From NCBI GenBank assembly GCA_017621495.1, contig JAGATB010000007.1, positions 1-64,000 on the forward strand: a DNA stretch of 64,000 bases. Reading direction: 5' to 3'. Made by a program: the position numbers and the translations under genes. Within the stretch, counting starts at the first letter, position 1, and each line of letters starts with the position of its first letter. The notes beneath the pieces were generated by a model. That model saw only the letters and a list, made by a program, of their open reading frames with translations, ran no database searches and had not been told where the DNA came from. Source of the DNA: Clostridia bacterium (GTDB taxonomy: Bacteria; Bacillota; Clostridia; UMGS1810). This document shows positions 14,848 through 58,913 of the stretch, one piece after another.

Positions 14848-14874
14848 TATTTAAAGCCTTCCTTTCCGAATAAG

Positions 14875-16149: not shown

Positions 16150-16176
16150 TGTTGATATCTGTCCTTTCATTTAAAT

Positions 16177-17358: not shown

Positions 17359-17377
17359 TGTCATCATTTCCTTTCTG

Positions 17378-24771: not shown

Positions 24772-24809
24772 GATACAAACTGATACCAACAACTATCATG
24801 GGGTGTATT

Positions 24810-30283: not shown

Positions 30284-31876
30284 TTATTCTATAATACAAT
30301 CATAACATTCTGTAAGTGTAACGGGATTACTTAGCAGACCCTTTGGTTTAAAGGTGTCTGTTTTTATAACCTTATTATTCCTAAAAACAATCTTTTCGGC
30401 ACAATTCGCCCACAGCAAAGGTATATCGAACGTCTGAAAAAGGTTGTCTTCTATGCAAATATTTTTATGCACTGCGCCTTGGGGATGCTTCACCTCAGGT
30501 GCAATATCAATAACCGCCTGACCCCACCTTGAATTGGCATTTAAATCAATGAACTTGTTATTACGTATGGTAACGTCCTTTACGCATCCGGACTCAAACC
30601 AAAAATTGCAGTCACCGGAAATACGAATTGCCGCACCGGATCTTTCAAAACAGTTATTCTCTATTAATACCTTACCTCGTGTCGTAATCAATAATCCGCG
30701 TGCACGGTTTTTACCAAAATAGCAGTCTCTTACCGTCAAATCCGGCGTATGAGATACATTTTCCAGATAATCACCGATTTTCACCGAGGGTTTATTATTC
30801 ATGACCAGTTTAATCAGATTATCACTGCACATTTGAGAGGATATTATCTCATTGCCTCCGTAGGATAGCAAGGTTTGGCAATCTATGTATTCCACCTTGT
30901 CTCCACGCTCAAATATCAGCATGCCCAACGCCTGATAGTGTCTGAGCTTTACATACACAATATTACCCTCCACATTGGAAACCTGAGCATATATTCCGTG
31001 ACAATTCAAAAAATCATCCATTTGTTTTTCAATATGGCACTTCTCCACCAATATATTACCGCTGCATTCAACAAAATGCACTCCGTCAGCATATGCACTG
31101 ACGAAACGTTTATCCGATGGTACAATCTTTAATTTGTGTATATGTATATCTTGAGAAAGCTGTGCCAGAATTCCCATTCCCAAACAGTGATGTATAGTTA
31201 CCCCATCAATTTTTATATTATTGCTTTTGTTTATAAAAATCCCGGGAGCAAAACGTTCTCCCAATCTGAAAAACATGTAATTACCTTTACGGGGAACAAC
31301 GTCAAACTTATGTTTGATACGCAGGATACCTTCCGATATTTCATCCGCAGAGCTATGGGTGAAGTAGTCACGGTCATTGGTTCCGTATTCTATACATTCC
31401 AACTCGGAGTTAAATTCAAGTGCGTTATTATACATGAATTCATATTCTCCATCGATACTAAACAGCGGTATATCCTCACGCATTCTGTAGGGGGTGTTTT
31501 CCCACAATTTAATATCACAAAACCTCTCCGAAGCATCGACAACTGTGGAATGAACATATGCAGTGACAGGGAAATTAACAGAGAAATTACGCAGTTCAAC
31601 ATTTGCGGAGTGATCTACAGATATTGGCAGCATGATTCCATGAAACACAAAATCCGAACCATTGCCGTCAATGACTATCTTATCAACATCCTCTATTTGA
31701 ATTCCTACATGTTTAACTCCGTCGTTATCATGGTTAGAGATGCAGCTAAACCTTTCTATGCCTTGATTCTGATAAAAATGGTATTCTCCCTTTTCAAAAA
31801 CAATCTCTCTTTCACCCTGTTCTATTGCCTGCAGGACAGCTGATGTAACATTTGAGCATGTACGCTTTATTAACAT
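30284..31876 (-). CDS. GH110-like alpha-1,3-galactosidase (cytoplasmic, parallel beta-helix)
   Basis: A 530-residue protein without a signal peptide. Many short repeats of beta-helix type run from about residue 70 to the end (for example VTIRNNKFIDLN and ICIEDNLFQTFD). The pattern ADGVHF followed after 23 residues by QMDDFLNCHG places three acids at Asp264, Asp287 and Asp288. That spacing matches the three catalytic Asp of characterised GH110 enzymes as I remember them, which remove terminal alpha-1,3-linked galactose by an inverting mechanism. It is the last gene of the eleven-gene glycan locus, 26 bases after the SGNH gene. Because it lacks a signal it should act on imported oligosaccharides. 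Another beta-helix hydrolase family remains possible; the triad is the main reason for this call. Confidence 0.78.
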   Translation of the reverse strand: MLIKRTCSNVTSAVLQAIEQGEREIVFEKGEYHFYQNQGIERFSCISNHDNDGVKHVGIQIEDVDKIVIDGNGSDFVFHGIMLPISVDHSANVELRNFSVNFPVTAYVHSTVVDASERFCDIKLWENTPYRMREDIPLFSIDGEYEFMYNNALEFNSELECIEYGTNDRDYFTHSSADEISEGILRIKHKFDVVPRKGNYMFFRLGERFAPGIFINKSNNIKIDGVTIHHCLGMGILAQLSQDIHIHKLKIVPSDKRFVSAYADGVHFVECSGNILVEKCHIEKQMDDFLNCHGIYAQVSNVEGNIVYVKLRHYQALGMLIFERGDKVEYIDCQTLLSYGGNEIISSQMCSDNLIKLVMNNKPSVKIGDYLENVSHTPDLTVRDCYFGKNRARGLLITTRGKVLIENNCFERSGAAIRISGDCNFWFESGCVKDVTIRNNKFIDLNANSRWGQAVIDIAPEVKHPQGAVHKNICIEDNLFQTFDIPLLWANCAEKIVFRNNKVIKTDTFKPKGLLSNPVTLTECYDCIIE

Positions 31877-31902
31877 GTTGCCTCCTCAAAACTAATAATA
31901 TA

Positions 31903-32520
31903 TTAATCAATCGAACGAATAGCACCTGCAATGAATGCAGCCTGAAGCTTGCGAACCTCATAATTGAAATGTGCATAATCAAGATACTTCTCTCCGGTCA
32001 GATTTTCAACAAAGTTATATAAGTCAATAACCGGTGAATCATATTTTTTTGCTGTTTTAACAGCCACCTCATTATATAAACAAACGTCCGAGTTATATCT
32101 CTTTACTCCGGCAGGAATAATCTCAACATTATGAGCTTTCTCCAGAACAGGCGTGGTAGTTATAAACACGCACTTGATACCATGGGACTGCATAATCTTA
32201 TAAACAGAATTTATGTTTTCTTCATACTTATCTACAGTCACCTGGTAGTTTTCCTCGGGTACTACACGCTTTATATCATGCAGTCCACAGTTAAACACAA
32301 GCAAATCAAAATCTAACAAATCCTTTTTTTCCAGTTCCTTAATATAATCTAACACTCTTGAACTGTCTCCACCATTGCCGCCAACAGGCTTATCAATATC
32401 CTGCAGGGCTTCCTTCTCTCCCGGTCTTGATTGTATGTCATATTCATCTGCAAGGTAGCCTTTTAAATTAGGACCGTAATGTAGGTTTATGCTGTCTCCC
32501 AATAAAAGCATCTTTTTCAT
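31903..32520 (-). CDS. Cytoplasmic SGNH hydrolase of the glycan locus
   Basis: A protein of about 205 residues without signal peptide. SGNH blocks are LLLGDSINLHYG at the N-terminus (Ser nucleophile), a Gly-rich GGNGGDSSRV segment near residue 48, FNCGLHDIK in place of GxND, and DYAHFNYE near the C-terminus (Asp-His). It is probably a carbohydrate esterase that removes acetyl groups from imported sugars, inferred from its place between the binding lipoprotein and the GH110 gene. ATG 32520 is chosen with a GGAG site 8 bases upstream; the TTG six bases earlier is too close. The hairpin at 32550-32589 separates it from the binding-protein gene. Confidence 0.8.
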   Translation of the reverse strand: MKKMLLLGDSINLHYGPNLKGYLADEYDIQSRPGEKEALQDIDKPVGGNGGDSSRVLDYIKELEKKDLLDFDLLVFNCGLHDIKRVVPEENYQVTVDKYEENINSVYKIMQSHGIKCVFITTTPVLEKAHNVEIIPAGVKRYNSDVCLYNEVAVKTAKKYDSPVIDLYNFVENLTGEKYLDYAHFNYEVRKLQAAFIAGAIRSID

Positions 32521-32549
32521 AGTCAAATCTCCTCAGTGTTAATACTACG

Positions 32550-32589
32550 GCAACAAAACCACTGCCAAATCGGCATATGGTTTTGTTGC
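32550..32589 (-). terminator. Intercistronic hairpin after the binding-protein gene
   Basis: Perfect 12-base arms GCAACAAAACCA (32550-32561) and TGGTTTTGTTGC (32578-32589) with an inner TGCC/GGCA stem. No T-run follows on the minus strand. Such hairpins after binding-protein genes often stabilise the upstream mRNA or partly end transcription. Confidence 0.65.
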
Positions 32590-32618
32590 ACAGAACATCT
32601 ATTTTGTCATCAATACTA

Positions 32619-33902
32619 TTAGTACTCTCCCTTGAGAACCTTAGAAACAACAGAATCCAACTCCTTGATACCATCGTTGAATCCTACCAGTCCGTTTCTC
32701 ATCTGAGTAATAATCTCGTCAGCCTTTGGTCTCCATTCTTCGTAAGTACCGTTTTCATATATTGTTGTTCCGTGTTTTTCCAATCCGGAATAGAAAGCCG
32801 ACAAGTTCTCAGGTCCGTTATACTCCATCTGCTCCATATATTCGATAGCAGTCTTTTTCACCTGAATACCATCCAGACCGGATTCTGTCATGATTTTTTG
32901 CGCTTCATCGCTCATGTAATATTTTATCCAGGTCCAAGCGGCTTCTTGTTCTTCTTCTGTAGCGGTAGAGCTTACTACCCAAAGATTGGGCACATATACA
33001 CAAGGTCTCTTGCCGTCAACACCATAGGGCATTATCTGTGCATTGTATCTGAAGCCCTCGGGAGCATTGTTTTCAATAACAGGTATCATGGAATGAAGTG
33101 CTATATACATACCTATCTTACCTGTATAGAATGCTGCCGTACCTCCCTGTGCAGCACTCCACTCTGCATCGGGTGCAATACCGTCTTTAACACAGTCAAC
33201 ATATTTCTTTAATCCGGATACTGTCTTTTTATCCTTAAACATAGATTTGGTTCTGGTTTCATCAAGAGGAGCTCCGCCCTCTGCCAAAACAAAGGGAAGC
33301 CATCCGGTAGAAATGTTTGTACCAAGCATCAGACCGTACTGGTCGACTTCTCCATCCGAATCCAAATCCTTTGTCAATTTCTTCGCCATTTTGATCATAT
33401 CATCAAATGTCCATGATTCATCAGGATACTCAAGACCGGCTTCATCAAAAATCTCTTCGTTATAATATATAGCCAGAGTATTTAAACCGTGAGGTATACC
33501 CCACAAATGACCTTCTGCATCCTGACCGGCATATAGAGCTGAGCTGTAGTCATCTGCATTTAAATCCGATTTTACTCTATCTGCCAAATCAACCGCCATG
33601 CCATTGGCTCCCATATATGCTACATGACCCGAATCCATTATAAATACTGTGGGCGCAGTCTTGGAAGCTGACTGAAGCTTAACCTTTTTCTTAAATTCAC
33701 TCCAGGGGGTTTCATCAATTTCCAGTTCAATTTCCGGATGAGCCTTTTGGAAGTTATCAACAACCTCTTTTGCAGTGATATCATATCCGCTGGGCAGACC
33801 CAGTCTCAGGGTTACCTTATCACTATCCTTTTTATCATTACATCCTGCAAAAATTGAAGCACACATCACAACAATCAATATAATGCTAAATATTCTTTTC
33901 AT
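32619..33902 (-). CDS. Sugar ABC transporter substrate-binding lipoprotein (CUT1 type)
   Basis: A 427-residue family 1 solute-binding protein. The lipoprotein signal ends in lipobox IFAGC near residue 20. Domain features include TLRLGLPSGYD, GIPHGLNTLAIYYNEEIFDEAGL (the typical SBP hinge region near residue 135) and ETSWTFDDM-like TFDDMIKMAKKL. It should capture oligosaccharides released at the surface and deliver them to the two permeases encoded just upstream (32 bases). The ligand is unknown; the GH110 gene suggests alpha-galactosyl oligosaccharides. Confidence 0.93.
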   Translation of the reverse strand: MKRIFSIILIVVMCASIFAGCNDKKDSDKVTLRLGLPSGYDITAKEVVDNFQKAHPEIELEIDETPWSEFKKKVKLQSASKTAPTVFIMDSGHVAYMGANGMAVDLADRVKSDLNADDYSSALYAGQDAEGHLWGIPHGLNTLAIYYNEEIFDEAGLEYPDESWTFDDMIKMAKKLTKDLDSDGEVDQYGLMLGTNISTGWLPFVLAEGGAPLDETRTKSMFKDKKTVSGLKKYVDCVKDGIAPDAEWSAAQGGTAAFYTGKIGMYIALHSMIPVIENNAPEGFRYNAQIMPYGVDGKRPCVYVPNLWVVSSTATEEEQEAAWTWIKYYMSDEAQKIMTESGLDGIQVKKTAIEYMEQMEYNGPENLSAFYSGLEKHGTTIYENGTYEEWRPKADEIITQMRNGLVGFNDGIKELDSVVSKVLKGEY

Positions 33903-33934
33903 ATAAAATCCTCCATTTATAAATCACACATAAT

Positions 33935-34786
33935 TTAACCCTTAACGGCAGCCGATACCATACCCTGCACAAATTGCTTTTGAGCAAAGAAGTAAAGCAC
34001 TACTGCAGGCAGCATAGCAAGTACCGAAGCTGCAATGAGTATCTCTGTATTATTTGTTTCGAACGTACCCTTAAGATACAGAAGCCCTACCGAGATGGTG
34101 TATTTCGACTTTGTAGTCAGGTATATAAGCGGTTGAAACATGTTGTTCCAACTGTTTAAAAATGTCTGTATGGTCACGGTTGCTATAATCGGCTTGGACA
34201 TCGGCATATACACCTGCATAAATATCCTGGGTGGCGAAGCACCGTCCACCAATGCTGCAGAATATATATCCGTAGGTATGCTCAAAAAGTGCTGTCGGAA
34301 TAAAAATGTCATCATAGCCGACCCGAAAAACGACGGCACAATCAGCGGTATGTATGTATCAAGAGCGCCCACATTCTGCCACATGATATAGTGAACAATC
34401 GCTGTGATATTTCCCGGAAGCATCATCGTGCACAAAACAGTGAAAAACAAAACCTGCGACCCCTTGAATTGATAACGTGCAAATCCAAATCCTATGAAAG
34501 AGTTGGATGCAACAGCACCTATAATATTCAGTACAGCTATGAAAAGGCTGTTCAAAAAGTATCTGAACATATTTGCCTTTGCAAATGCTTCAGAATAATT
34601 GCTGAAATAGAACGGTGCCTTAAAAAACCTCGGCGGAGTAATATATGCAAGTCCCGGTCCCTGAAGCGATACCGATAATGCCCATATAAACGGAAATACC
34701 ATAATGACGGTTCCTAAAATGAGTAAACATGTAACAAGTATGTTTGGTACGTTGTTTAAGATTTTATTTTTGTTCCTTTTAAGCAT
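33935..34786 (-). CDS. Sugar ABC transporter permease (MalG/AraQ-like)
   Basis: A 283-residue inner-membrane subunit with about six helices. The EAA loop that contacts the ATPase is DIYSAALVDGASPPRIFMQVYMPMSKP near residue 190, and ATVTIQTFLNSWNNMFQPLIYL follows, as in MalG-type permeases. ATG 34786 has GAGGT 9 bases upstream; the gene overlaps the end of the other permease gene by 8 bases, so translation is coupled. No ATPase gene is found in the locus, so a shared MsmK/MsmX-type ATPase elsewhere is expected. Confidence 0.93.
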   Translation of the reverse strand: MLKRNKNKILNNVPNILVTCLLILGTVIMVFPFIWALSVSLQGPGLAYITPPRFFKAPFYFSNYSEAFAKANMFRYFLNSLFIAVLNIIGAVASNSFIGFGFARYQFKGSQVLFFTVLCTMMLPGNITAIVHYIMWQNVGALDTYIPLIVPSFFGSAMMTFLFRQHFLSIPTDIYSAALVDGASPPRIFMQVYMPMSKPIIATVTIQTFLNSWNNMFQPLIYLTTKSKYTISVGLLYLKGTFETNNTEILIAASVLAMLPAVVLYFFAQKQFVQGMVSAAVKG

Positions 34787-35657
34787 AGTGTACATACCTC
34801 TTTTCCATGCGTTTCTGAATCCATGTCAACACCGCCATTACTATAAACGAAACCCAGGCAATTGACGAGCCGATACCCAATTTATTATATACAAATGCAT
34901 TTTCATAAATTAATGTTCCTACAACCTTAATATTGGCACCGGTATTGGCACTTTGAGCCATGATATAGAACTGGTCAAACACCTGCAATGAGTTAATGAC
35001 ACCTATAACCAGCAGGAAGAATAATGTAGGGCTGAGCAGCGGTACGGTTATGGAAAAGAACTTCCTTACAGGTCCTGCACCGTCCACTTCTGCTGCCTCC
35101 ATAACCTCTGTGCTGATATTCTGGAGTCCTCCCAAAACATAGAGGATGATATACCCTAAGCCCTTCCATGCATTCATCAGTGCTACGCCTACAACAAACT
35201 CAAACCAGTTGCTTGAAAATGTGTATTTAAACGGCCCTATACCCAGGAAAGACAGCAGGTAGTTAAGCACACCGTAGGATGGGTTATATATGTACGACCA
35301 TACAAAGCTTATAGCTACCATGGGCGTAAGCACCGGCAGGAAGTACAACGTCCTGAAAATCCCGGTTCCCTTCATCTTGCGGTTCAATGCTACAGCAAGA
35401 ATACAGCCTAAAAACAATTGCAAAAATTCATTTATAAATCCATACACAAAGACATTTCTGAAGGATGTCCATAAGCTCACATCCGTCAAGACATTTATGT
35501 AATTTCTGAAACCTACCCATTTAGGTGGGTTAAAGAGGTTGTATTCCGTAAATGACAGATATCCGGAAAACAGTACCGATGATAACGTGAATATGCTGAA
35601 GCCGATTATGTACGGTGCTATAAAAAACCAACCCCAAAGCTGATGCTTCTTTGTCAT
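34779..35657 (-). CDS. Sugar ABC transporter permease (MalF/UgpA-like)
   Basis: A 292-residue inner-membrane subunit. It begins with HQLWGWFFIAPYIIGFSIFTL and carries the EAA loop ISTEVMEAAEVDGAGPVRKFFSITVPLLSP near residue 190, typical of UgpA/LacF-type permeases of the CUT1 class. It pairs with the permease encoded at 33935-34786. The SLH protein gene upstream ends 14 bases before it, so transport and surface genes share one transcript. Confidence 0.93.
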   Translation of the reverse strand: MTKKHQLWGWFFIAPYIIGFSIFTLSSVLFSGYLSFTEYNLFNPPKWVGFRNYINVLTDVSLWTSFRNVFVYGFINEFLQLFLGCILAVALNRKMKGTGIFRTLYFLPVLTPMVAISFVWSYIYNPSYGVLNYLLSFLGIGPFKYTFSSNWFEFVVGVALMNAWKGLGYIILYVLGGLQNISTEVMEAAEVDGAGPVRKFFSITVPLLSPTLFFLLVIGVINSLQVFDQFYIMAQSANTGANIKVVGTLIYENAFVYNKLGIGSSIAWVSFIVMAVLTWIQKRMEKRYVHYA

Positions 35658-35671
35658 AATCCCTTACCTCC

Positions 35672-38335
35672 TTAGTAGATAATAATCAATTTAACGGTAG
35701 AACTCTGCGCATATATAAATGCCTTATCTCCCGACTGTATGCTTTCTTTTGAGATTTTCTCCATAACATTCCTCTCATGGTTGTATCTCATGATAAGTGT
35801 ACTGCTTAAAATCGGATACGCTCTCATCCACATTTCTAAGCCATCTGTGCTTGGTACCAATACTCTTATACCACCGTCAAGAAGCTTATCAATCTCAACA
35901 AAGCTGCATGTCCTCATAGAGTACACATTATCCTTGGTAATGGTAAGAAGACTTGATTCCTTGAGAGACTGAGTACCCTGACGGTACATCAAATTCACTG
36001 TTGAGATTTTTGAATTTGAGTCTCTGGAGTATTCTATTATATCGCCTGTCTTAATTTCGTGCGGTAAGATATAATTTACACCAAGCTGTGTCTTGTAATC
36101 GGTCAAGGATAAATCGACTATGGCAGAGCTGTCTATTACCACATGCAAATCCTCATCCACCGTTATCATCTCTTCTGTACGTCCGCCGCGGTGGATATAT
36201 ATCTTTGATGCATTGTCCCCCTCTGAATCCAATACAGACGAGGTTTTTAATACTACTCCAATCAAACGATTATCCTGTACAAATATGCTGTCTTCATATT
36301 TTATAACTGCTGCCCCTATTTTGTGATTTACGTCGATATCATAAAGCTTTACATTTCTGTACGTATCATCTGTCTGTAATCTGTTTAATTGTATCACAAA
36401 AAACTTTTCTTCCAGGGATATATCCTCCGGTATTACAAAGAAAGGCGTATCGCTTTTTATAAAATATCTTGAAGCCAGCATATTCATATTGCCCTTACGG
36501 CAGATAACGCTGGAGTATTGATCATCGAGTGTAAACACACTCTGTCTTTCTTCATCTGTAGAGTATCCGCTTCCGTTTTGTGCATATGATAAGGAACGTA
36601 TTTTACCCTCGGAGTCTAATTCAAATGTTATAAGCTGAGGTACTACCTTTCCTGCGCTTACCAATTTGCGGTTACTTAAAATATCTGACGAAGTAGCCGA
36701 AGCTTCATTGAGCTTTAGCTTATTTGCTACATCGTAAACATAGAATTTGCTGTCCTGAGCAAATATCTTCACCTGCAGACTGCCGCTTAATCCGGATGTC
36801 TGATTAATACCTACAAGATATGCATAATTTCTCACTGTACCACCGGTATATGTAACTGCAGCTACCTTGCCTAAAGCATCAAAATAATATGTACCGGATT
36901 TACCAAACTCTATGATGCCTCTGTTTAAGGGGTCATCATTTATGCTTAAATCTATAGTATATGCTGTATCATCTATTGTTATCTCATCATCACTCACAGA
37001 CGTACATGTGCCGCTGAGCTTGTCGGTTGATACCTTCATTATATATACCTTACCGTCGTTGCTTCTCGCAGTGGAAATTATAGTGTCCTCTTTGAGTTCG
37101 GCAGGGTCTACTGCATTGCCATCTATATCTGTAAGCTCATAACGCAGTCCCGAATCGGCAGATAAATCAATACCCGCATACTCACTCAGTGATGTTTTAA
37201 AATAGATTGTCTCGTCAAGCTCTATATAGCTTTTGACAATCAGATTTACATAATCATCTGCAAATATGATATCATAATATCCGTTACCGTCGGTGTCAAG
37301 CAGTCTTATATAATCAGCAGAGGTAATATCGGCAGGTGCCCACGATACCTTTGCTGCACCATTATATATTAAATCAGCGCCTTCATAAAGCCTTGCAGTT
37401 TTCTTACTGCCGGATGCATTGAAGTAAGAAATCTCATCATATGCAATTTCATTCACATCATCACCGGTAAGACACAGCTCGGAGGATTTGACATCCTGCT
37501 CTCTGTAGGCTATTATAGTATCTCTTCCTGACACATTGCGTACATAACACACGAGATACTTACCGATTTCCTTATATAAGCTGTCCGATGAAGTATTGTA
37601 CACCTTTTCGTCAATCATTACTTCGTCTGTGTCCAGAGTACTCTCTGCAGTAAGGCTTGTAAGGTAGTTCTCGGTCAATCTGCCGTAGATAACATCTATA
37701 TCCCAATATGTGGATAGTATGGTCTTGCCTTTTACTGTCTCATAAGAGATACTGTCACCCTTTACAGACACAGTATCCATCATATCGATTTCCAACGTTT
37801 CAACAAGCATCAGGCAAAATTCGCCCAAGGTAATGATATCATCTCCCGATACCTGTATGCCCTGATTGATTTTGAGGCTGTTTGCAGCGATATGATATCC
37901 ATAGGGCCATCCGCCTTTGCACTCGGCGTATTCAGCATAACCCGCCATAGTAACCAGGGTTTTTACCGCTTCATTGTATGTAATGGCTTTAAACGGTTGA
38001 AATGTTCCGTCAAAATAACCATTCATAATTCCCATAGAATAAGCAGCATATATATACGCCGACTTATCATCCTCGGATACATCCGCAAAGACCTTCTGTT
38101 CATTTTCCGGGGCATTTATCTGCATACATTTGGCTGCAGCCTCTGCCAAATCCCTTCTCTGTACGACGTAGTCCGGGTCGTATTCACCAAGTGTAAGAAT
38201 ACCTAAATCTTTGACAAGATTTATACTCTCGGTATACATATCACCTGTATCAGGCTCTGCAGCCATGACTACGGGATTCACCTGAATGCAAAATATCATA
38301 AAAAACAATGTAAATATAGCCGTAAGCCTTTTCAC
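35672..38335 (-). CDS. Secreted surface protein with N-terminal SLH domains
   Basis: An 887-residue exported protein with a signal peptide (MKRLTAIFTLFFMIFCIQVNPVVMAA). SLH repeats occupy about residues 30-195: INLVKDLGILTLGEYDPDYVVQRRDLAEAAAKC, then FADVSEDDKSAYIYAAYSMGIMNGYFDGTFQP (each quoted only to locate the motif by its start). The remaining ~690 residues are beta-rich with repeated short units such as DGNGYYDIIFADDYVNLIV and KVYIMKVSTDKLSG; I do not recognise a catalytic domain. It should be held on the wall polymer by SLH binding. The gene overlaps the next one upstream by 4 bases. A scaffold or glycan-binding role is an inference from the locus. Confidence 0.85.
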   Translation of the reverse strand: MKRLTAIFTLFFMIFCIQVNPVVMAAEPDTGDMYTESINLVKDLGILTLGEYDPDYVVQRRDLAEAAAKCMQINAPENEQKVFADVSEDDKSAYIYAAYSMGIMNGYFDGTFQPFKAITYNEAVKTLVTMAGYAEYAECKGGWPYGYHIAANSLKINQGIQVSGDDIITLGEFCLMLVETLEIDMMDTVSVKGDSISYETVKGKTILSTYWDIDVIYGRLTENYLTSLTAESTLDTDEVMIDEKVYNTSSDSLYKEIGKYLVCYVRNVSGRDTIIAYREQDVKSSELCLTGDDVNEIAYDEISYFNASGSKKTARLYEGADLIYNGAAKVSWAPADITSADYIRLLDTDGNGYYDIIFADDYVNLIVKSYIELDETIYFKTSLSEYAGIDLSADSGLRYELTDIDGNAVDPAELKEDTIISTARSNDGKVYIMKVSTDKLSGTCTSVSDDEITIDDTAYTIDLSINDDPLNRGIIEFGKSGTYYFDALGKVAAVTYTGGTVRNYAYLVGINQTSGLSGSLQVKIFAQDSKFYVYDVANKLKLNEASATSSDILSNRKLVSAGKVVPQLITFELDSEGKIRSLSYAQNGSGYSTDEERQSVFTLDDQYSSVICRKGNMNMLASRYFIKSDTPFFVIPEDISLEEKFFVIQLNRLQTDDTYRNVKLYDIDVNHKIGAAVIKYEDSIFVQDNRLIGVVLKTSSVLDSEGDNASKIYIHRGGRTEEMITVDEDLHVVIDSSAIVDLSLTDYKTQLGVNYILPHEIKTGDIIEYSRDSNSKISTVNLMYRQGTQSLKESSLLTITKDNVYSMRTCSFVEIDKLLDGGIRVLVPSTDGLEMWMRAYPILSSTLIMRYNHERNVMEKISKESIQSGDKAFIYAQSSTVKLIIIY

Positions 38336-41204: not shown

Positions 41205-41225
41205 TGTGATATCTCCTTTCATTGA

Positions 41226-41247
41226 GTGGGGCCTTTTACAGCCCCAC
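41226..41247 (-). terminator. Intercistronic hairpin upstream of the SLH gene
   Basis: GTGGGGC (41226-41232) pairs with GCCCCAC (41241-41247) with an 8-base loop, in the 58-base gap between the 1075-residue protein gene and the SLH gene. No strong T-run follows, so it may be an attenuator or RNA-stability element. Confidence 0.55.
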
Positions 41248-41262
41248 ATCCTGTACAATATC

Positions 41263-44200
41263 TTACTGTGCCGTTATTTCCGCATGGTGTGTCAGCGGTT
41301 TCAATTCAGAAGTACCGTCTGTACCGTCCCATACGAAGGCTTTAACAATTGTATTTGCCATATCGGCTACCGCAATCGCATCGGTATCAAAACGGATAAA
41401 TCCGTTTGCTACGGTAACATTTGCACTCTTGCATGCTAAGAGCTTATTGGTTATCTTATCATAGGAAGCTATGATTGCAGTTACAGTCTCCTCTGTGTCT
41501 CCGTTGTAAGCGTATGCCCATGCGTTGACATTACTGCCCGATACGATGAACTCAGGCTCACAAATGCTAAGACCGGTCTGCTTATTAACGAACTTAACAG
41601 CACTTATATATGCTATATTATCATCACCGGCAGCCACAGTCAACTTTTCGCCGGATACCGAGCTGTCAAAACGGTATGTATCTCCTGCTTTATACCATCC
41701 CTCGGTCTGAGGAGTGTAGTCTACGCTGTACACATCATCTGCATCTGCTACACTTATGCTTATCTGTGCGGAGAGTCCATCAAGAGTCTCTGCATCTACC
41801 GGTACGAAGTACACATAGGCATCGTATTCACCTGAGAGTGAATCAGGAACAGCAAACTCTACAGAATCAGCAATCAATACAGCCGCTCCGTTACCGTTGT
41901 AACCATGCACACCCGGTACGCTATCGGGATCAGAATTCCATTCTGCATCAGCCCATGCTATGGCTGTGCCTGTCTTAACAACTGCGAAATTATATTTATC
42001 CTCACCTACGGTAATCTCTATATTATTCACACCGTCATCAAGCGCTATATTAGTTTCAGCTTCAGAGCTTAATACCACTTCGTTTGCTTTAACTTCATCT
42101 TCCGTAATAATAGCATGCATAATTCTGGCATCTGTGCTCTCTGTATAGAAAACCTTGTCATTTATATCATTAAGCTCTGTATATACACCATCTACAGTTA
42201 TACCGTCGGAGAGCTTAATGAACTTAACAGTATCCAAAAGGAATCTCTTACCGGATACCGTACCGAAATCCAGTCTCTGCTCTGCATCATTGAAATAATA
42301 CGAGCCCAAATCTACCCATTTACCCTCAGATGATGTCCAGTCAACGGTGCCTTTGAATGTACCGTTTGCAGCTGTAACAGTGTAGGGCATGTCCTCTCCG
42401 CCGTAGTAAACGGACGGAGTGGCATTGCTTCTTGCGGTGAAGCTAAATCCGGGAACCCATGCCAGCAATTTGTAATATCCTGCCGGCAAAGTATCTCTGA
42501 AGCTGAAATAATTCTTAGCAGCTGCAGCACTCGCATCGCTCATATAACCGGTCTTGTGACCTGTATTCCACGGGTCGAGAGAAACAGGAGCTATCTCAAA
42601 GCTGTATCCGTTTTCGCTGATCTCTACCAATCTTCTGGTTACACTGTTTTCATCTGTCTGGGCATATATACTAAAGGTGTATGTCTGTGCAGCATCCTGA
42701 TTTGTTAATTTAATTTCCAGGGTCATATCGTTGCCGCCCTCTGCCAGTACAAGGCTCTTAGCAGTATTAACGGTGAGTGTCTCTCCGTTTAATGTAATAT
42801 ATTCGTACTTGTTGTTGTTACCTATAACACTTATGGATACATCTGTACCTGCCACAGGCTGTACATAGTCTCCCTGTGCTATTACAGTCTTTGTAATTGA
42901 TGCACTTTCCTCTCCGGCAGTGATTGCTATACCGGCAAAATCCTCCGCTGCCATAGCAGCACCTGCGGGTACAAGCTGCATACCGTTAATACACAGCTGT
43001 TTATCTGTCAATGCTTCCTGAGGATTCATAACAGCTACTGCTTCATTACCGCTGCCGTCAAAGTAATATGTACCTGCAAACACCTTGGTCATCCATTTTT
43101 TGTGATATTTACCGGGCATTACAAGCTTACGCTCTATTATACCTGCATGGTCTACTATAACCTCTGCATACTCTCCCATAATATTGGGGATAAATGACGG
43201 ATATAAATACAGATTGTAGTAGCCTGCAGTCATAATATCTGTGCCCAGTGTCCAATGCGCAAAGTTACCCAGACTACCAAGCTTGGCATTACCTGTCCAA
43301 GAAGTGTCCACAACTCCCCATCCACTTGTTACATTTGAATTATTCGGAGACATAGAACCAACAGAATTAGGAGAACCACTGTTTCTTATCCAGAAATTAC
43401 CGCTTTTATTACTGCTGCTTACGGAGGTGGGAACCTTGAGGTTTACGGAGCTGTTCTTCTCCACTACAAATGATATATCATATCTCTCCTTGTTAGTTCC
43501 ATCCTCGGACTCTACATAAATGATCCTGCTGTATTCACCGCCGTACTCTATATATTGCTGTAGTGTAACAAATGCTTTGCCGTCGGTGCTTATTTGAGTC
43601 ATCTTATCATTATAGATTTTAGCATTGGGGTCTTCTGCTTCCAGTGTATAATAAAGCTTCCTTCTGGTACCGCCGCCGGATACTGTGGTCTCTGCACCGT
43701 ACTCCTTAGGTACAGACATCACTATACGATTAGAATCTACGGTAGCTTCTTCGCACAGAATCTTTGTAATTTTAGTATCATCGACACTCGCTGCCGCAGT
43801 AGTGTTTACGTTGGTGTAAACATGGGTAAGCTTAGCACTGGATTTCCTGTCTACAGGCACAAACTTAACCGCACTTGCATATGCGTAAGAATTCCACAAA
43901 TCATTTCTGAGCTCTACATACTCTGCTCCGTCAACACCGGAAAAATAGTGAGTACCCAATTTTACCCAACCGTTGGTTGAGACGCTTGCTGTAGCCTGGT
44001 TTACATAGTATGTGGTCTGAGTGTTTCTGGGTGCCTGCAGAGTTACACCGTTATTGGAGTCAACACGGGTATTAACTGTGTATCTGGTGTGGTAACCAGG
44101 CTGAGCTTTCTGATTATTAGTTCCACCATTTCTGAATAAATCAGTTCCGTTATTTATTACATTATAAACATATACATCATATGTACCTGCCGGAGCACTG

Positions 44201-44490
44201 CTGCCCTTGGCAAAATACCACCTTGCATATGTATCGGGGTGATACACTGCGGTGACACCCCTACCGTTGTATCCGGTTAATTTACTGTCTACCAGTCTGC
44301 CGTTTGTAGTCCACGAAGCCTCAATAACAGCGGATGCCGTAAATCTGGTTTCATCCGTAAGTGATGAAGTATTGTTAAGTACTATTATAGTACCCTCGGG
44401 GTCTGTATCTGCCGCAAGCACTGCTCCTGCAGGAAAAGCAGAGAGCACGAATGCAAATACTAACAAAATCGACAATAATTTTTTCTTCAT
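41263..44490 (-). CDS. Large secreted protein with four golvesin-like beta-sandwich modules
   Basis: A 1075-residue exported protein with a signal peptide ending around AGAVLAAD. Four related modules of about 130-160 residues lie near 55-215, 365-510, 635-760 and 845-970. Each has a Trp- and Gly-rich start, an AGTYDVYVY-like strand (AGYYNLYLYP, AGYYKLLAWVP, SGEYDAYVYFVP), a W-x-LG-x-YYF strand and an end like AVKFV. This is the golvesin/xanthan-lyase C-terminal-like pattern, associated with polysaccharide binding. Cadherin-like or Ig-like linkers lie between, and the last 105 residues form an Ig-like unit. No catalytic motif or SLH domain was found. It probably binds the target glycan at the surface. 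Confidence 0.75.
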   Translation of the reverse strand: MKKKLLSILLVFAFVLSAFPAGAVLAADTDPEGTIIVLNNTSSLTDETRFTASAVIEASWTTNGRLVDSKLTGYNGRGVTAVYHPDTYARWYFAKGSSAPAGTYDVYVYNVINNGTDLFRNGGTNNQKAQPGYHTRYTVNTRVDSNNGVTLQAPRNTQTTYYVNQATASVSTNGWVKLGTHYFSGVDGAEYVELRNDLWNSYAYASAVKFVPVDRKSSAKLTHVYTNVNTTAAASVDDTKITKILCEEATVDSNRIVMSVPKEYGAETTVSGGGTRRKLYYTLEAEDPNAKIYNDKMTQISTDGKAFVTLQQYIEYGGEYSRIIYVESEDGTNKERYDISFVVEKNSSVNLKVPTSVSSSNKSGNFWIRNSGSPNSVGSMSPNNSNVTSGWGVVDTSWTGNAKLGSLGNFAHWTLGTDIMTAGYYNLYLYPSFIPNIMGEYAEVIVDHAGIIERKLVMPGKYHKKWMTKVFAGTYYFDGSGNEAVAVMNPQEALTDKQLCINGMQLVPAGAAMAAEDFAGIAITAGEESASITKTVIAQGDYVQPVAGTDVSISVIGNNNKYEYITLNGETLTVNTAKSLVLAEGGNDMTLEIKLTNQDAAQTYTFSIYAQTDENSVTRRLVEISENGYSFEIAPVSLDPWNTGHKTGYMSDASAAAAKNYFSFRDTLPAGYYKLLAWVPGFSFTARSNATPSVYYGGEDMPYTVTAANGTFKGTVDWTSSEGKWVDLGSYYFNDAEQRLDFGTVSGKRFLLDTVKFIKLSDGITVDGVYTELNDINDKVFYTESTDARIMHAIITEDEVKANEVVLSSEAETNIALDDGVNNIEITVGEDKYNFAVVKTGTAIAWADAEWNSDPDSVPGVHGYNGNGAAVLIADSVEFAVPDSLSGEYDAYVYFVPVDAETLDGLSAQISISVADADDVYSVDYTPQTEGWYKAGDTYRFDSSVSGEKLTVAAGDDNIAYISAVKFVNKQTGLSICEPEFIVSGSNVNAWAYAYNGDTEETVTAIIASYDKITNKLLACKSANVTVANGFIRFDTDAIAVADMANTIVKAFVWDGTDGTSELKPLTHHAEITAQ

Positions 44491-44542
44491 TATATATTCC
44501 TCCTCGTTTTATAAAACTGCCTTATGGGCAATGTTTTCAAAA

Positions 44543-47296
44543 TTAATAAGTATATCCAACCTTAAAATTATCCAGACAGAAAGCTGAGCCATATCCCTGA
44601 AAAGAAAATTCATGATTACTTATGTAGAAGAAATCCTCACTGATTTTCATACGGGTTATAAGCTTGGCACCATCTGCTGTTATGGTAAGTAAATGATTAT
44701 CGGTATCCACTTCAAGCTTTATATTGTGCCATGTATTTCGGCTGAGATTACACAGAGTTGCATATCCGCCGTCGGTGTTCCTGATTTTGAGCTTATTGTC
44801 TGCAGAGATTTGCAGGCCTATGCCGTCGGAGCCGTAATCATCATACATGCTGTATACATAGTTGCCGGGTTCATCCACCTTTATATCAAACTCCACCGAT
44901 ACACTGCCCGATAAAGACATACTGCGTTTAAAGAGACTTCCCTCAAAGAGCATAGGATTGTTGCGCAGCTTTACCGCACTGTCATCACCGTGTGTAACCG
45001 GCTGTGAATTGATATTTGTCATTTCATATTCATCAGAAATATCGTCTGTATCAAAGTTATCATCTATTACAGGTACATAGCCTATATATGACAATCTGTC
45101 CTTGGTGAGCTTCCTCGCCAGAGGTGCATAATACTTTTCATAGTAATTATCTTCATTACCGTATGTCTTCCAATTCTCCTCCAGGGCATTTTTCACCGGC
45201 AGATAGTATTTGGTCCAGTTTTCCTCACCATCGTCCATTCGTGGCATACCACCGTTTATTACGGTTATAAGCCCCACATCCGTGAGATTTATTTTCTGCA
45301 GATTGCCGTTGCTGTCATAGTAAGCCCATGCATCACCCTTTGATATACCTACACAGTTTGCCAGTCCGTACTGCGGCCAGGTCATATTCGCCAGTGGCGA
45401 TGCAAATCCATCTACCTTTACTGACTCACCCTTTAAGGTAGCGGTATAGTATGCATCCATATTCGGCAGGAAAAATGCACTTGATGATAATGGTGCACCA
45501 CCGTTACCGGGCTGTCCTGTCTGATGAACAATCAGAATTCCGTCCGGGAAAAGCTCCCTTAGCATCCTGGATTCTTCATATGCCACAACCCATGCTCCCT
45601 CTCCGGGAGTTCCATCCGAGTAAACTCCGTCTACCCCGTATCTGTCACGTAAACGTCTGACTTCATTTATATATCTGTCCGGTGACGAACGGTCAAAATA
45701 GAAATGCATAGTGGTATAGGTTATAGCCTTGGCATCGTTATTATGTGCTGCTTTTATGGCTTCTTTGGTAATGCCTTCGGTTACATCATGCTTATAATAC
45801 GGACTGTATTGCATACCTGCAGTAGTATTGTGACAAAAATCCCAAAGCATCAATATATCCAGATCCAATTCCTCTACATATCTGGTCATATTATCCAGAT
45901 GGGTCTGTGCCGGAAATATATTTCTGTATGAGGAATTAAAAGCCGCCTCCCAATCATACTCCCTGGGCGGAAATGTGCCTATACACAGACGCTCACCGGG
46001 AGATATGGTCCACTTAAACTGCCATCCGGGCTTTTCGCTTGAAATAAACCAATTTCTCTTGGCATTTCTATCCTCTTTTATCTCATTATCAAACTTTATA
46101 TTTACAAAATCCAGATTTTCCGTTATAGGCTCCGAACGGCAAATTCTGCCGGTACCCTCCGGGATATCCGGAGTCACATTAAATCCACCATAGTCATCAA
46201 ATGCTATAAGGTGTCCGCATCCATATCTGTTCCAATGACCGCCTATCTCCGAGGTGCATATCAGATTAATATCAGATTGATGCGGTGTCAAAAACAAGCT
46301 GCCGTCCATCTGTACACCAAAGGTCACAAGACTGTTGGACAATACTGCTTCTGTTTCTGTATGACTTCTTACCTTGAGATCTTTAAAACTCAGGTCGGAT
46401 TTCCATGTAGATACCTTTCTTTCCATATTGATTTTTTGTTCGGCAGTTATTGTATTATTTACCAAATCAAAGGTATATCCGGCACCTGTGGTATCCACTC
46501 TGATTTCATCTGAGGTTGTGGTTACACCTTCAATAGCCATGTCCAGACTTCCTGCACTGCCTCTGAAGGTAACACCCTCTCCCTCCTTATACGGAATCAA
46601 TTCCTTTTCGGGAAGCTCATATACCTGATAGTCTGCAATCAGTATGTTGCTTTCGGGCATTCCCTCCACAAAACCGGTTGTTACTAAGTTTGCCTGACAG
46701 TATTTGGCATTTTCCAAAATCCAGGGGCTCATGACGAACTCTATTCTGGTCCAGCCTTCTGTATCACCGGGTACGCCGCAACGGCGATTTAAAGCATACT
46801 TACCGTTTTCATCAGTAAACAGCAGATTAAGATTAAACTCACGTGTTCTGTTGGTATACCTGCTGAAATCAGACCATATAAGTACCGATGCCATGTAGTT
46901 ACGATTGGGTTTGACTTCAAATCTGCCGCTTCGGCAGTATTTATCACCCGCACCGGTTGGTAGACATACACGATAGTAGCCTCTGCCGGCGATTTCGTTG
47001 TATTCCATAGCTATGGAGCTTAAATCAAACTGTGTACCCGGAGTTCCGAAATCATAATTCTCGAGTTCAATTCTGGTACCGCCCCGTGAGTCTACCTCAT
47101 ACAGTTCGTCCGGTATGGGCTCTATGGGTCTGTTTTTAAATGATTCAATCGGGGTCAAATTTGCCACATGCTCCTCGTATGTCGTAACCTTGGCTGCTGT
47201 TTGCATATCATTGGCTGATGCGCTTAGTCCAAATATGCAAAACGCATACAAGACTACAAGCATACGAGAGCATGCCAGTATGGATTTTTTCTTCAT
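44543..47296 (-). CDS. Secreted putative glycoside hydrolase, unassigned family (paralogue A)
   Basis: A 917-residue exported protein with a signal peptide (residues 1-28). Residues 50-225 form a CBM4/9-like beta-sandwich (YRVCLPTGAGDKYC to ILIADYQVYELP). Residues 230-430 look like a beta-sandwich of the galactose-mutarotase kind that precedes TIM-barrel glycosidases (VTFGVQMDGSLFLTPHQSD). Residues 440-740 look like a TIM barrel: REYDWEAAF, DLDILMLWDFCHN, YGVDGVYSDGTPGEGAW, IVHQTGQPGNGG, TLKGESV. Asp561 (with Asp556) is the best nucleophile candidate and Glu624 a second acid; both are conserved in paralogue B. A LamG-like lectin module ends the protein (from about 755). The barrel is reminiscent of clan D/GH101-like alpha-glycosidases, but I cannot assign a family. 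No enzyme activity is shown by sequence alone. Confidence 0.7.
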   Translation of the reverse strand: MKKKSILACSRMLVVLYAFCIFGLSASANDMQTAAKVTTYEEHVANLTPIESFKNRPIEPIPDELYEVDSRGGTRIELENYDFGTPGTQFDLSSIAMEYNEIAGRGYYRVCLPTGAGDKYCRSGRFEVKPNRNYMASVLIWSDFSRYTNRTREFNLNLLFTDENGKYALNRRCGVPGDTEGWTRIEFVMSPWILENAKYCQANLVTTGFVEGMPESNILIADYQVYELPEKELIPYKEGEGVTFRGSAGSLDMAIEGVTTTSDEIRVDTTGAGYTFDLVNNTITAEQKINMERKVSTWKSDLSFKDLKVRSHTETEAVLSNSLVTFGVQMDGSLFLTPHQSDINLICTSEIGGHWNRYGCGHLIAFDDYGGFNVTPDIPEGTGRICRSEPITENLDFVNIKFDNEIKEDRNAKRNWFISSEKPGWQFKWTISPGERLCIGTFPPREYDWEAAFNSSYRNIFPAQTHLDNMTRYVEELDLDILMLWDFCHNTTAGMQYSPYYKHDVTEGITKEAIKAAHNNDAKAITYTTMHFYFDRSSPDRYINEVRRLRDRYGVDGVYSDGTPGEGAWVVAYEESRMLRELFPDGILIVHQTGQPGNGGAPLSSSAFFLPNMDAYYTATLKGESVKVDGFASPLANMTWPQYGLANCVGISKGDAWAYYDSNGNLQKINLTDVGLITVINGGMPRMDDGEENWTKYYLPVKNALEENWKTYGNEDNYYEKYYAPLARKLTKDRLSYIGYVPVIDDNFDTDDISDEYEMTNINSQPVTHGDDSAVKLRNNPMLFEGSLFKRSMSLSGSVSVEFDIKVDEPGNYVYSMYDDYGSDGIGLQISADNKLKIRNTDGGYATLCNLSRNTWHNIKLEVDTDNHLLTITADGAKLITRMKISEDFFYISNHEFSFQGYGSAFCLDNFKVGYTY

Positions 47297-47323
47297 AAGC
47301 TCTCTCCTCTCTATATTTACTCT

Positions 47324-49966
47324 TTAAAATCCCTGAAGCAATTCTAAATTACTGAAATATGCTGTAGTAGTTCCTGTGTCACTTGACGCTAATACCAAAG
47401 CCTGCGGTACACCGGATTTATAGTAGAAATGCATATCTTCGGCAATGGTTACGTCGTCCTTCATAATCATAAATGTTTTCCTGCCGCAATCAATTATGAT
47501 TGTTATGTTATGCCAGGTATCCGCTTCATATGATTCAAGTATATCATACGAGCCGGTATTATCCGTAGCTCTTATAATGCCGTTACCCATCAGCAGCTTC
47601 ATACAGGAGTTGCCATTTGCATCATTAAAGCATATCTGAGCACTCCCCGAAGCGTCTGTCCTCACATCGATATCTAGACGAAGTCTTCCGGATTGCTTGC
47701 CTATATTCTTCACTGCCGCTCCCTTGGAGTTTAGCCCACCTCCATCATCTACACAGAGAGCATTAACTCCGTCAACCGGCTCAATTGATACAGATGACAT
47801 GCTGCCGCTGTCTACACTCCACGAGGATAGATGTGATGACTTCGTAAAATCATAATCCGCCAACAGCTTGGTGCCTTTTTCTTCTTCAATTTCACTTCCG
47901 TAGTAATCATCTTCTCTAATCAGCTTGTGAACAAAAGGCAAATAATGCTCATTATAATAGTCGCTGCGATTTTGGTGAACCAAATAATTTATACGAAGCT
48001 TTTGAAGCAGGGTATCATATAATGATGCATATTTAACCTCACTTCCTTCATCACGGGATTCTACACGTGCCCTGCCGTTATATAATAAGGAAATTAAATT
48101 TTGCTTATACTCAGGCATCACTTCATCATTTTCCATCCAAGCATTGCCCTTTAATAGGCCTATGGCATTGGATACATTATAGCCGGGGGCTATTTCCCTT
48201 GCGTATGACCAGTCAATGCCCTCTCCGGGGATATCTTCTCCCCTTAAAGTGATAGTGAAGTATGAGTCAATGGCGGGTATAAACATATCATGGAGCCCTG
48301 CAGGCGGACCGCCGTTCCCATGTTTGCCTGTCTGATGCACTATAATCGGTCCATCCGGGAAGAGCTCTCTTAACCTTCTGGCACCTTCATATGCTGCCAG
48401 CCACTCTATATCCGGGGTACCATCGGTATACACACCGTCTATACCATATGTATCTCTGTGACGTTTGACCTCATTTATGTATTCATCAATATCACGATTG
48501 TACCAGAAGTACATACTCATATACGGTGCAACCTTAATTCCATTGTTATGTGCTTCGGCAATATCAGTCTTATACTTGCTCTCATACCCGGAGGCAACTT
48601 CATAAATATTGCCGTATGACATACCCCATGATTTTTTGGTATAGTCCCAGAACACACCCACATCAACTCCATACAGCTCAGCATCCTGTGCAAACCGTGC
48701 AGTATTACCGTTTTTATAATAATTGATATAAGTACTTTCAAAAGAATCTTGCCAGTCATACTCCCTTGCAGGGAATATACTCACTCCCAAAAGCTCTCCC
48801 GAGCTGATTTGATAATCTATATACCACCCTGCCTGTGAAAATGTAACGAAATCCGGATTATTATATACATTATCAAAGTCTACATCATCACTTACAGTAT
48901 ATCTGCAAAGTCTGCCGGTACCCAATGGAATATACGGGTTTATGGTAAATCCACCCAGGTCATCCTTTGATACCACATGACCCTGATACGACCGGTTCCA
49001 ATCGCCTTTAAAAACTGACTCGCAGTTTATCTGAAGGTCTGTATCACCGTGATTTGAAATCAGCATCATAGAATCCATCTGTACACCAAATGTCACACCG
49101 CCTTCACCGGTGGTAAGGACTGCCTCGTTATCGCTTTTGCTCAGAAGGCTGAGATTTTGCAGTGACTTGTTTAGTGTCAGCGACACTAAATTACGCTCGG
49201 TATTGATATGCTGAGAAATCAATACTGTGTCATCTGATTTATTAAAGACGAATTTGACAGCCGTTGTCTTAACGGTGATGGTTTCATCTCCTGTGGTGAC
49301 ATCGGAAACTTTCATATTATATTTACCGCTGCTACCGCCGAATATCATACCCTCACCCGGTGACAATGGTGTGATTTCTTCCGCAGGCAGCTCTATGATA
49401 TGTAAATCGGATATATAAAAACTATTTGCATTATCCGGTATGCTGAATCCGTACAGTGCTATATTGATGAGACCACTGTTACAAACGGCACCGGTTGTAA
49501 ATGTCTTTTCTATACGCTGCCAGCCATCTGTTTTTGCGGGAGTTCCAATACGGTTTGAGTGTGAGAGATTGCCGTCTTTATCATAGCTTTTCAGTATAAT
49601 ATCCACTTCACAGTTGTCTCTGGAATAATCAGAATATATCAAAGCAGTCAATATATAGTTCCTGTTGGGCTTTAAGCTCATGCTGCCCTGAGACAGAACA
49701 TTTCTTCCTGTTTTGGGAGTGAGCATATAACATCCGGTTGTACCATCCAAGCTGTGAAACGTAGTATAAGCAGTGGTTTCCTTCGAGTTAAACTTAGCAC
49801 CGGTTTTGGTAAGGTCAAAATTCGGTATCGCAATCTCCGTACCCCGCTCGGCACCATATTCCAGTAATGCCGAATCTATCTCGGGAGGAGACGAGGCAGC
49901 ATATACCGTTAAACAAAGAAGCATAGTGCAGAGCAATACAGTGATGATAATGAGGAACCTTTTCAT
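47324..49966 (-). CDS. Secreted putative glycoside hydrolase, unassigned family (paralogue B)
   Basis: An 880-residue exported protein (signal peptide residues 1-23), first gene of the locus. It has the same order as paralogue A along most of its length: CBM-like module (about 35-200), mutarotase-like sandwich (VTFGVQMDSMMLISNHGDTD), TIM-barrel region (AREYDWQDSFESTY, DVGVFWDY, YGIDGVYTDGTPDIEW, IVHQTGKHGNGGPP, TLRGEDI) and a C-terminal LamG-like module. Asp515, Asp510 and Glu577 align with Asp561, Asp556 and Glu624 of A. Identity outside the motifs is low, so the pair diverged long ago and may cut different linkages. An AAAAGGAG site lies before ATG. Its promoter region holds AraC-type direct repeats. 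Confidence 0.7.
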   Translation of the reverse strand: MKRFLIIITVLLCTMLLCLTVYAASSPPEIDSALLEYGAERGTEIAIPNFDLTKTGAKFNSKETTAYTTFHSLDGTTGCYMLTPKTGRNVLSQGSMSLKPNRNYILTALIYSDYSRDNCEVDIILKSYDKDGNLSHSNRIGTPAKTDGWQRIEKTFTTGAVCNSGLINIALYGFSIPDNANSFYISDLHIIELPAEEITPLSPGEGMIFGGSSGKYNMKVSDVTTGDETITVKTTAVKFVFNKSDDTVLISQHINTERNLVSLTLNKSLQNLSLLSKSDNEAVLTTGEGGVTFGVQMDSMMLISNHGDTDLQINCESVFKGDWNRSYQGHVVSKDDLGGFTINPYIPLGTGRLCRYTVSDDVDFDNVYNNPDFVTFSQAGWYIDYQISSGELLGVSIFPAREYDWQDSFESTYINYYKNGNTARFAQDAELYGVDVGVFWDYTKKSWGMSYGNIYEVASGYESKYKTDIAEAHNNGIKVAPYMSMYFWYNRDIDEYINEVKRHRDTYGIDGVYTDGTPDIEWLAAYEGARRLRELFPDGPIIVHQTGKHGNGGPPAGLHDMFIPAIDSYFTITLRGEDIPGEGIDWSYAREIAPGYNVSNAIGLLKGNAWMENDEVMPEYKQNLISLLYNGRARVESRDEGSEVKYASLYDTLLQKLRINYLVHQNRSDYYNEHYLPFVHKLIREDDYYGSEIEEEKGTKLLADYDFTKSSHLSSWSVDSGSMSSVSIEPVDGVNALCVDDGGGLNSKGAAVKNIGKQSGRLRLDIDVRTDASGSAQICFNDANGNSCMKLLMGNGIIRATDNTGSYDILESYEADTWHNITIIIDCGRKTFMIMKDDVTIAEDMHFYYKSGVPQALVLASSDTGTTTAYFSNLELLQGF

Positions 49967-56771: not shown

Positions 56772-56780
56772 CACAATACC

Positions 56781-58160: not shown

Positions 58161-58191
58161 ATGTAATTCTCCAATACCTTGACACAGACTC

Positions 58192-58257
58192 ATAAAGTCA
58201 CCACACACCAAGGACGCAGCTAATCAAAGCTCCGTCCCGTGGTTGATGCGACTTTAT
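58192..58257 (-). ncRNA. Candidate structured RNA element upstream of the MBOAT gene
   Basis: Four nested stems can form on the minus strand: 58192-58199 with 58250-58257 (8 pairs), 58200-58204 with 58239-58243 (5), 58212-58216 with 58233-58237 (5), 58218-58220 with 58229-58231 (3), separated by internal loops. No T-run follows, so it is not a normal terminator. I recognise no known riboswitch family. It lies between the DUF4358 stop and the MBOAT start. Confidence 0.45.
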
Positions 58258-58269
58258 ACGTAGTCCCAA

Positions 58270-58887: not shown

Positions 58888-58913
58888 TTCTAATCCTCTT
58901 CTCTACAGCTTCA

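Follow-up and report, generated by a model that had tools for sequence, protein, structure and literature searches.

A putative Gram-positive polysaccharide utilization locus with a recurrent tandem of SLH proteins in an uncultured gut Clostridia bacterium

How an uncultured gut Clostridia bacterium might hold, cut and take up a sugar polymer at its surface is the question raised by a cluster of eleven minus-strand genes (P0001 to P0011; positions 30284-49966) in a 64,000-nucleotide stretch of contig JAGATB010000007.1 (hereafter the window), from a 2.2-Mb genome that is 89% complete. An initial annotation of the window had read the cluster as a wall-attached glycan-degrading assembly that imports its products, and had not recognized it as a described polysaccharide utilization locus (PUL). 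The gene inventory makes it very likely that the cluster serves to cut a sugar polymer, import the products and trim them. Within it, P0004 and P0006 form a fixed tandem in which a protein of ~550 aa with C-terminal SLH domains is followed by one of ~870 aa with N-terminal SLH domains and a string of beta-barrels (hereafter P4 and P6 types).

Gene content of the locus

Gram-positive PULs (gpPULs) are defined by the combination of a polysaccharide-degrading enzyme, a carbohydrate transport system and a transcriptional regulator (Sheridan 2016; PMC5320581). In the present locus the enzyme is a glycoside hydrolase (GH) of family GH110, the transport system consists of two permeases and a sugar-binding lipoprotein, and the regulator is a divergently encoded AraC-type protein. 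All three are present; by its gene content the locus is a gpPUL, of a new variety, and fits a described kind of locus that the initial annotation had not recognized. In common with the gpPULs of Roseburia and Eubacterium rectale, it has an enzyme, an ABC sugar transporter and an AraC-type regulator in one locus; unlike them, it adds an SLH tandem that recurs genome-wide, and neither 'S-layer' nor 'SLH' occurs in the main text of the paper that defines them (PMC5320581). The genes, in transcription order, followed by two further genes of the window that bear on them, are:

47324..49966, minus strand: P0001, secreted enzyme-like protein of ~880 aa (Pfam, AlphaFold model, fold and profile comparison)
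44543..47296, minus strand: P0002, secreted P0001 paralogue of ~917 aa, 31% identical to P0001 over the alignment
41263..44490, minus strand: P0003, secreted 1075-aa golvesin-module protein with two golvesin stretches (Pfam golvesin C-terminal domain)
39519..41258, minus strand: P0004, first of the two SLH-pair proteins (P4 type), a 579-aa ORF (open reading frame) with three C-terminal SLH domains (Pfam, sequence); its TTG start codon at 41258 is uncertain
38332..39522, minus strand: P0005, secreted beta-sandwich protein between P0004 and P0006 (paralogue in the same position in a sister locus)
35672..38335, minus strand: P0006, second of the two SLH-pair proteins (P6 type), 887 aa, N-terminal SLH trimer then beta-barrels (Pfam SLH, model)
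34779..35657, minus strand: P0007, CUT1-type permease (BPD_transp_1)
33935..34795, minus strand: P0008, CUT1-type permease (BPD_transp_1)
32619..33902, minus strand: P0009, sugar-binding lipoprotein (SBP_bac_1, lipobox)
31903..32526, minus strand: P0010, SGNH/GDSL esterase, predicted to be cytoplasmic (Pfam GDSL)
30284..31876, minus strand: P0011, GH110 alpha-1,3-galactosidase (GLAA-B, PDB match, catalytic residues)
50146..51063, plus strand: P0012, divergent AraC-type regulator (Pfam AraC)
911..3124, plus strand: fusion of a GT4 glycosyltransferase and a CsaB-like polysaccharide pyruvyl-transferase

The ORF list of the window shows the eleven genes tiling the whole interval, with junctions, in transcription order, of 27, 52, 4, -4, -4, 14, -17, 32, 92 and 26 nt, and the AraC gene lying at the cluster head across a gap of 179 nt. 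The initial annotation had described this arrangement correctly, including the absence of any gap above 92 bases, and its gene list agrees in substance with the SLH, golvesin, SBP_bac_1, GDSL, GLAA-B and permease domains found with Pfam; its 'several 4-base overlaps' are in fact two overlaps of 4 bases and one of 17. No strong terminator was found in the coding-strand intergenic gaps of the cluster, which hold one weak 5-pair hairpin in the 92-nt gap. This is compatible with, and does not prove, a single transcript, on which the eleven genes would be co-transcribed.

The previously proposed GH110-like enzyme is borne out. P0011 matches PdGH110B (7jw4) over nearly its whole length (E 2.2e-90), has the GLAA-B barrel domains and beta helix, and retains the catalytic triad, its D264, D287 and D288 aligning with D321, D344 and D345, the catalytic aspartates of PdGH110B (PMC7939477). 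It is the single GH110 copy found in this genome. A simple heuristic predicted signal peptides on the first six proteins of the cluster and a lipobox on P0009 (whose closest relative of solved structure binds arabino-oligosaccharides); the same heuristic found no signal peptide on P0011, and none is visible in the sequence of P0010. As both proteins lack an export signal, they would act after import and not at the surface, with P0011 working on imported sugars. This would set P0011 apart from GH110 alpha-1,3-galactosidases such as PdGH110B, as an enzyme without a signal peptide that serves an importer in a Clostridia bacterium. Capture, cleavage and import thus persist from the initial picture of a wall-attached assembly, from which the GH110 and SGNH proteins, predicted to be cytoplasmic, have to be removed.

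The recurrent SLH tandem

The pair counts given here rest on searches and sampled stretches; for the present genome, a home-made profile was run against 20-kb neighbourhoods. P0006 relatives number 27 in this genome, counting matches of all lengths, and occur in multiple copies across its GTDB family. Twenty P6-type genes were recognized in this genome, and at 14 of their loci a P4-type gene immediately precedes the P6-type gene, with a gap of -4 to 32 nt (median 18 nt); at two more, here and in the sister locus, the two are separated by a P0005-type gene, which brings the count to 16 pairs. In G012, a genome of a second genus (3.3 Mb, 79% complete), one P6 query gave 51 matches, ~40 of them long, and in the sampled stretches P4 stands directly upstream of P6 at 27 of 38 loci (gaps -34 to 27 nt) and one gene further away at another two (29/38 with a nearby P4). 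The reverse order, with P4 directly downstream of P6, was seen at none of the 58 loci of the two genomes. A rough binomial estimate puts chance adjacency at <1e-17, and pairs were also found in another family of the class (G025). The SLH proteins are not special to the present locus but belong to a pair that recurs throughout the genome and the family, a point that the initial annotation had missed.

When the SLH parts are left out, distances among the P4 proteins correlate with those among the P6 proteins (Mantel r 0.44, p 1e-4, 16 pairs). Strict co-evolution of the two was rejected, since just 5 of the 16 pairs have concordant nearest neighbours, which makes partner exchange or long divergence likely.

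The genes near the pairs vary. In this genome they encode GH78, GH88, GH39, GH3, GH106, sortilin/BNR-type (GH74-like) proteins and the carbohydrate-binding module (CBM) family CBM9; in G012 they encode heparinase II/III-type lyases with F5/8-type C (CBM32-like) domains (13-15 of 50 neighbours) and also GH20, GH78, GH39 and GHL6. A CUT1 permease gene lies within 10 kb of 10 of the 16 pairs of this genome (P about 1e-4) and within 20 kb of 15, and an AraC-type gene near 18 of the 38 sampled P6 loci of G012. A family of ~1400-aa proteins was observed directly beside many G012 pairs (L261, L272, L273, L274, L259, L264, L247), the L273 member being a heparinase-II/III-like lyase with an F5/8-type C domain. 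The C-terminal 'KAFVWD' module at the end of P0003 was considered as a general surface-retention tag and set aside, as only three secreted proteins of the examined loci carry it.

SLH anchoring needs a pyruvyl-transferase, and the only one detected in the genome is the GT4 fusion at 911..3124, which is expected to make the SLH ligand. P0004 consists of a signal peptide, a beta-sandwich, a helical region, a linker and the SLH trimer, and its sequence has Arg in all three TRAE-type motifs. Residues 31-210 of the P0006 model superpose on SpaA-SLH with Z 18.6 (root-mean-square deviation 2.6 over 157 residues). The groove Arg of P0006 is kept only in the first repeat, where R60, shared by 90% or more of the family, corresponds to the SpaA Arg that contacts pyruvate (PMC6081394). 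The SLH trimer fold, the TRAE-type motifs and a pyruvyl-transferase in the genome are features in common with SpaA of Paenibacillus alvei and with Sap; the differences are the arrangement of two SLH proteins as a tandem in sugar loci and the restriction of the P6 groove Arg to one repeat. A further candidate, P6 as an OmpM-like porin, was rejected on profile and model evidence: profile matches to solved SLH proteins cover the SLH part only, the model is a string of small barrels, and no large outer-membrane barrel is among the listed fold matches.

A core P6 orthologue, single-copy, unpaired and outside sugar loci, is conserved in many genomes (L095:7148-9769 and L118-L197) and is a candidate main S-layer protein. 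Its named relatives belong to uncultured Clostridia and Oscillospiraceae metagenome-assembled genomes, many labelled ruminant hindgut (goat, sheep, deer, yak, buffalo), and to Acetivibrio sp. MSJd-27, in which only the core orthologue was seen, Candidatus Ornithomonoglobus and Lachnospiraceae MD329. A second cassette type contains a longer P6 (930-1300 aa), usually without P4, beside genes for proteins of ~385 aa and ~790 aa (L105, L251, L253, L263, L275).

The large secreted paralogues, the sister locus and the rest of the window

The two proteins that the initial annotation had called hydrolase-like and unassigned do look like unassigned glycosidases. In the AlphaFold model of P0001 (mean pLDDT 73), a CBM-like jelly roll (67-192), a beta-sandwich (220-400), a TIM barrel (405-690) and a lectin-like jelly roll (699-880) are predicted, the last matching the corresponding BT_1020 module (Z 20.3, model comparison). 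D515 ends strand 4 and E577 ends strand 6 of the barrel. Both, together with H544, D567 and Y569, are invariant in all seven family members, among them a 451-aa stand-alone core. The best whole-chain Foldseek matches of P0001 are glycosidases of GH101, GH31, GH66 and related families, with GH36 and GH129 also among the fold matches, a likeness at superfamily level only. Assignment to GH101 or GH129 was not adopted in spite of the high fold rank of these structures; a two-sequence GH101 profile showed no relation to P0001 or P0002, and for GH129 the comparison covers the fold only.

Both proteins fall below every Pfam and NCBIfam cut-off, including that of DUF6259 (PF19773; P0001 17.7 bits against 28.7, P0002 no match). 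In a profile comparison with hhalign, the P0001 family aligns to DUF6259 at 94.6% probability (E 7e-8, a pairwise E-value only), and the Asp of the GVYxDG motif (D515) falls on the invariant Asp of DUF6259. They differ from DUF6259 in the extra jelly rolls at both ends and in their other conserved residues. P0001 and P0002 are thus probably carbohydrate-binding and TIM-barrel proteins distantly related to DUF6259, forming a new and rare glycosidase family; by the position of D515 and E577 they may be retaining glycosidases that use these two residues. Matches to the family profile occur in 6 of 391 genomes of the class, 3 of which cover the C-terminal module only, and hits over the catalytic core are confined to this genome, G149 and G063. 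The 451-aa core was observed in another family of the class (L112:1486-2841), where it has neither signal peptide nor jelly rolls.

Two further copies of the P0001/P0002 family, which has few homologues elsewhere, are encoded in a diverged sister locus of the same genome (G000:C10, ~39-63 kb). It repeats relatives of P0001, P0002, the golvesin protein, P0004, P0005, P0006 and three transporter genes (a permease being 51% identical between the loci), has GH106 and a 675-aa protein in place of GH110 and SGNH, and has two Gfo/Idh/MocA oxidoreductases at its upstream end. This content suggests a recurring core of the enzyme pair, the golvesin protein, the SLH trio and the importer, with exchangeable trimming enzymes. 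The full gene set was not seen outside this genome: in the relatives search, 38 of 39 other genomes had no P0001 match and one matched in the C-terminal module only. Conserved synteny of the large paralogues thus occurs only in the second locus of the same genome and not in the 39 relatives.

Elsewhere in the window, AcrB-type RND pump, HlyD-type fusion protein and OEP (TolC-like outer-membrane efflux) genes stand in a row at 11764-17367, which is unexpected for monoderm Clostridia. A row at 55641-60296 encodes a DHHW protein, an MBOAT O-acyltransferase, a 205-aa product and an SLH-GDSL protein, and looks like a set for surface-polymer O-acetylation. An enzyme of the Choloylglycine-hydrolase family (54036-55010; E 3e-100) is of a gut-associated bile-salt or acylase type, and a Fic/DOC-domain protein (24798-25970) has a relative at L108.

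Proposed function and alternatives

We propose, with a probability of about 0.65, that the locus is a gut Clostridia gpPUL that cuts at the surface, imports and trims inside, with the SLH pair as a standard module. In this scheme the AraC protein would sense a sugar and switch on the operon; P0001 and P0002 would bind the polymer through their jelly rolls and cut it with the DUF6259-like TIM barrel, D515 being the likely nucleophile and E577 the likely acid/base. Polymer and enzymes would be kept at the pyruvylated wall polymer by P0004 together with P0006, probably helped by the golvesin protein and the beta-sandwich protein. Oligosaccharides would be imported by the binding lipoprotein with the two permeases, powered by an ATPase encoded elsewhere, and in the cytoplasm the SGNH esterase may strip acyl groups and GH110 terminal alpha-1,3-galactose. 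The SLH pair would be the standard module of many loci of this kind, combined each time with other enzymes.

Several observations weigh against this proposal. The locus has no ATPase gene for its importer, P0001 and P0002 have no visible wall anchor, and the beta-barrel domains of P0006 gave generic OB-fold matches only (Z at most 7.1). Most large secreted neighbours of the pairs have no Pfam match, so that their role in glycan breakdown is assumed. No CUT1 gene was found near any of the 38 sampled P6 loci of G012 (roughly 5-6 kb each side), which points to the enzyme set, not the importer, as the constant partner of the pair; the idea of the pair as a CUT1-importer partner, which holds near many loci of the present genome, was rejected on this ground.

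Alternatively, the pairs may be conditional S-layer subunits, each sugar locus bringing in a surface coat of its own that would shape permeability or shield the cell and not capture glycan. P6 does resemble S-layer proteins in its N-terminal SLH trimer and beta-barrel string, and the unpaired core orthologue, which lies outside the sugar loci of many genomes, could be the main S-layer protein; however, the pairs are located inside enzyme operons, and some of the longer P4 proteins have F5/8-type C or Big domains before their SLH repeats, while others show a CBM_4_9-like match below threshold, features that speak for a role in holding substrate. We consider the S-layer explanation unlikely, if the most serious of the competing ones. 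Less probable still is that the TIM barrel of P0001 and P0002 is dead and the two proteins bind glycans without cutting them: the relation to DUF6259 is weak, and DUF6259 itself has no published activity in the open-access literature searched, but the residues invariant in all seven members, the stand-alone core included, argue for catalysis. We consider it very improbable that the locus serves to remodel a wall polysaccharide or exopolysaccharide of the cell itself instead of feeding on an external glycan. The SLH proteins, the SGNH esterase, the DHHW/MBOAT O-acetyltransferase pair nearby (55641-58211) and the SLH-GDSL protein would suit such remodelling, whereas the CUT1 importer, the divergent AraC and the cytoplasmic exo-galactosidase fit catabolism, and the sister locus has GH106 and sugar oxidoreductases.

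A bolder extension of the gpPUL reading, which we regard as tentative and on balance doubtful, would make the P4-P6 tandem the general two-protein wall receptor of glycan loci in one lineage of uncultured gut Clostridia, in the place of SusC/SusD, copied along with each locus and combined anew with different enzymes, together with P0001/P0002 as a new GH family. Like SusC/SusD in the PULs of Bacteroidota, the tandem is a constant, ordered surface gene pair with variable enzymes and tens of copies per genome, and the comparison draws on recurrence, order and neighbourhood as read from gene sequences. Unlike SusC/SusD, an outer-membrane TonB-dependent transporter and a SusD lipoprotein, P4 and P6 are SLH wall proteins with no homology to that pair; their Pfam matches are limited to SLH and, for some P4 proteins, CBM-like or Ig-like domains.

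SLH domains are reportedly mentioned in the genome literature on Monoglobus pectinilyticus. SLH proteins are known to display carbohydrate-active enzymes (CAZymes) (for example PMC9177762, PMC12871809), and wall display through SLH is common to the present locus, SLH-anchored CAZymes and cellulosome anchors (e.g. Cel5I); here, by contrast, SLH is mostly on separate non-enzyme proteins, and the locus enzymes have no detected SLH or dockerin. The tandem is not described in the literature searched on SLH and PULs, which, being open access only, is weak evidence of novelty. Taken with its recurrence, this suggests that the pair is a so far undescribed standard surface module.

The retention of polymers and enzymes at the surface of Gram-positive gut bacteria is far less understood than the Sus system of Bacteroidota. 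For Clostridia of the rumen and hindgut, whose genomes are poorly annotated, the fixed SLH tandem would provide a sequence marker of glycan loci and, as many of its secreted neighbours have no Pfam match, may point to many candidate new enzymes; P0001 and P0002, beside GH110, are candidates, open to testing, for a new family of glycosidases acting on alpha linkages.

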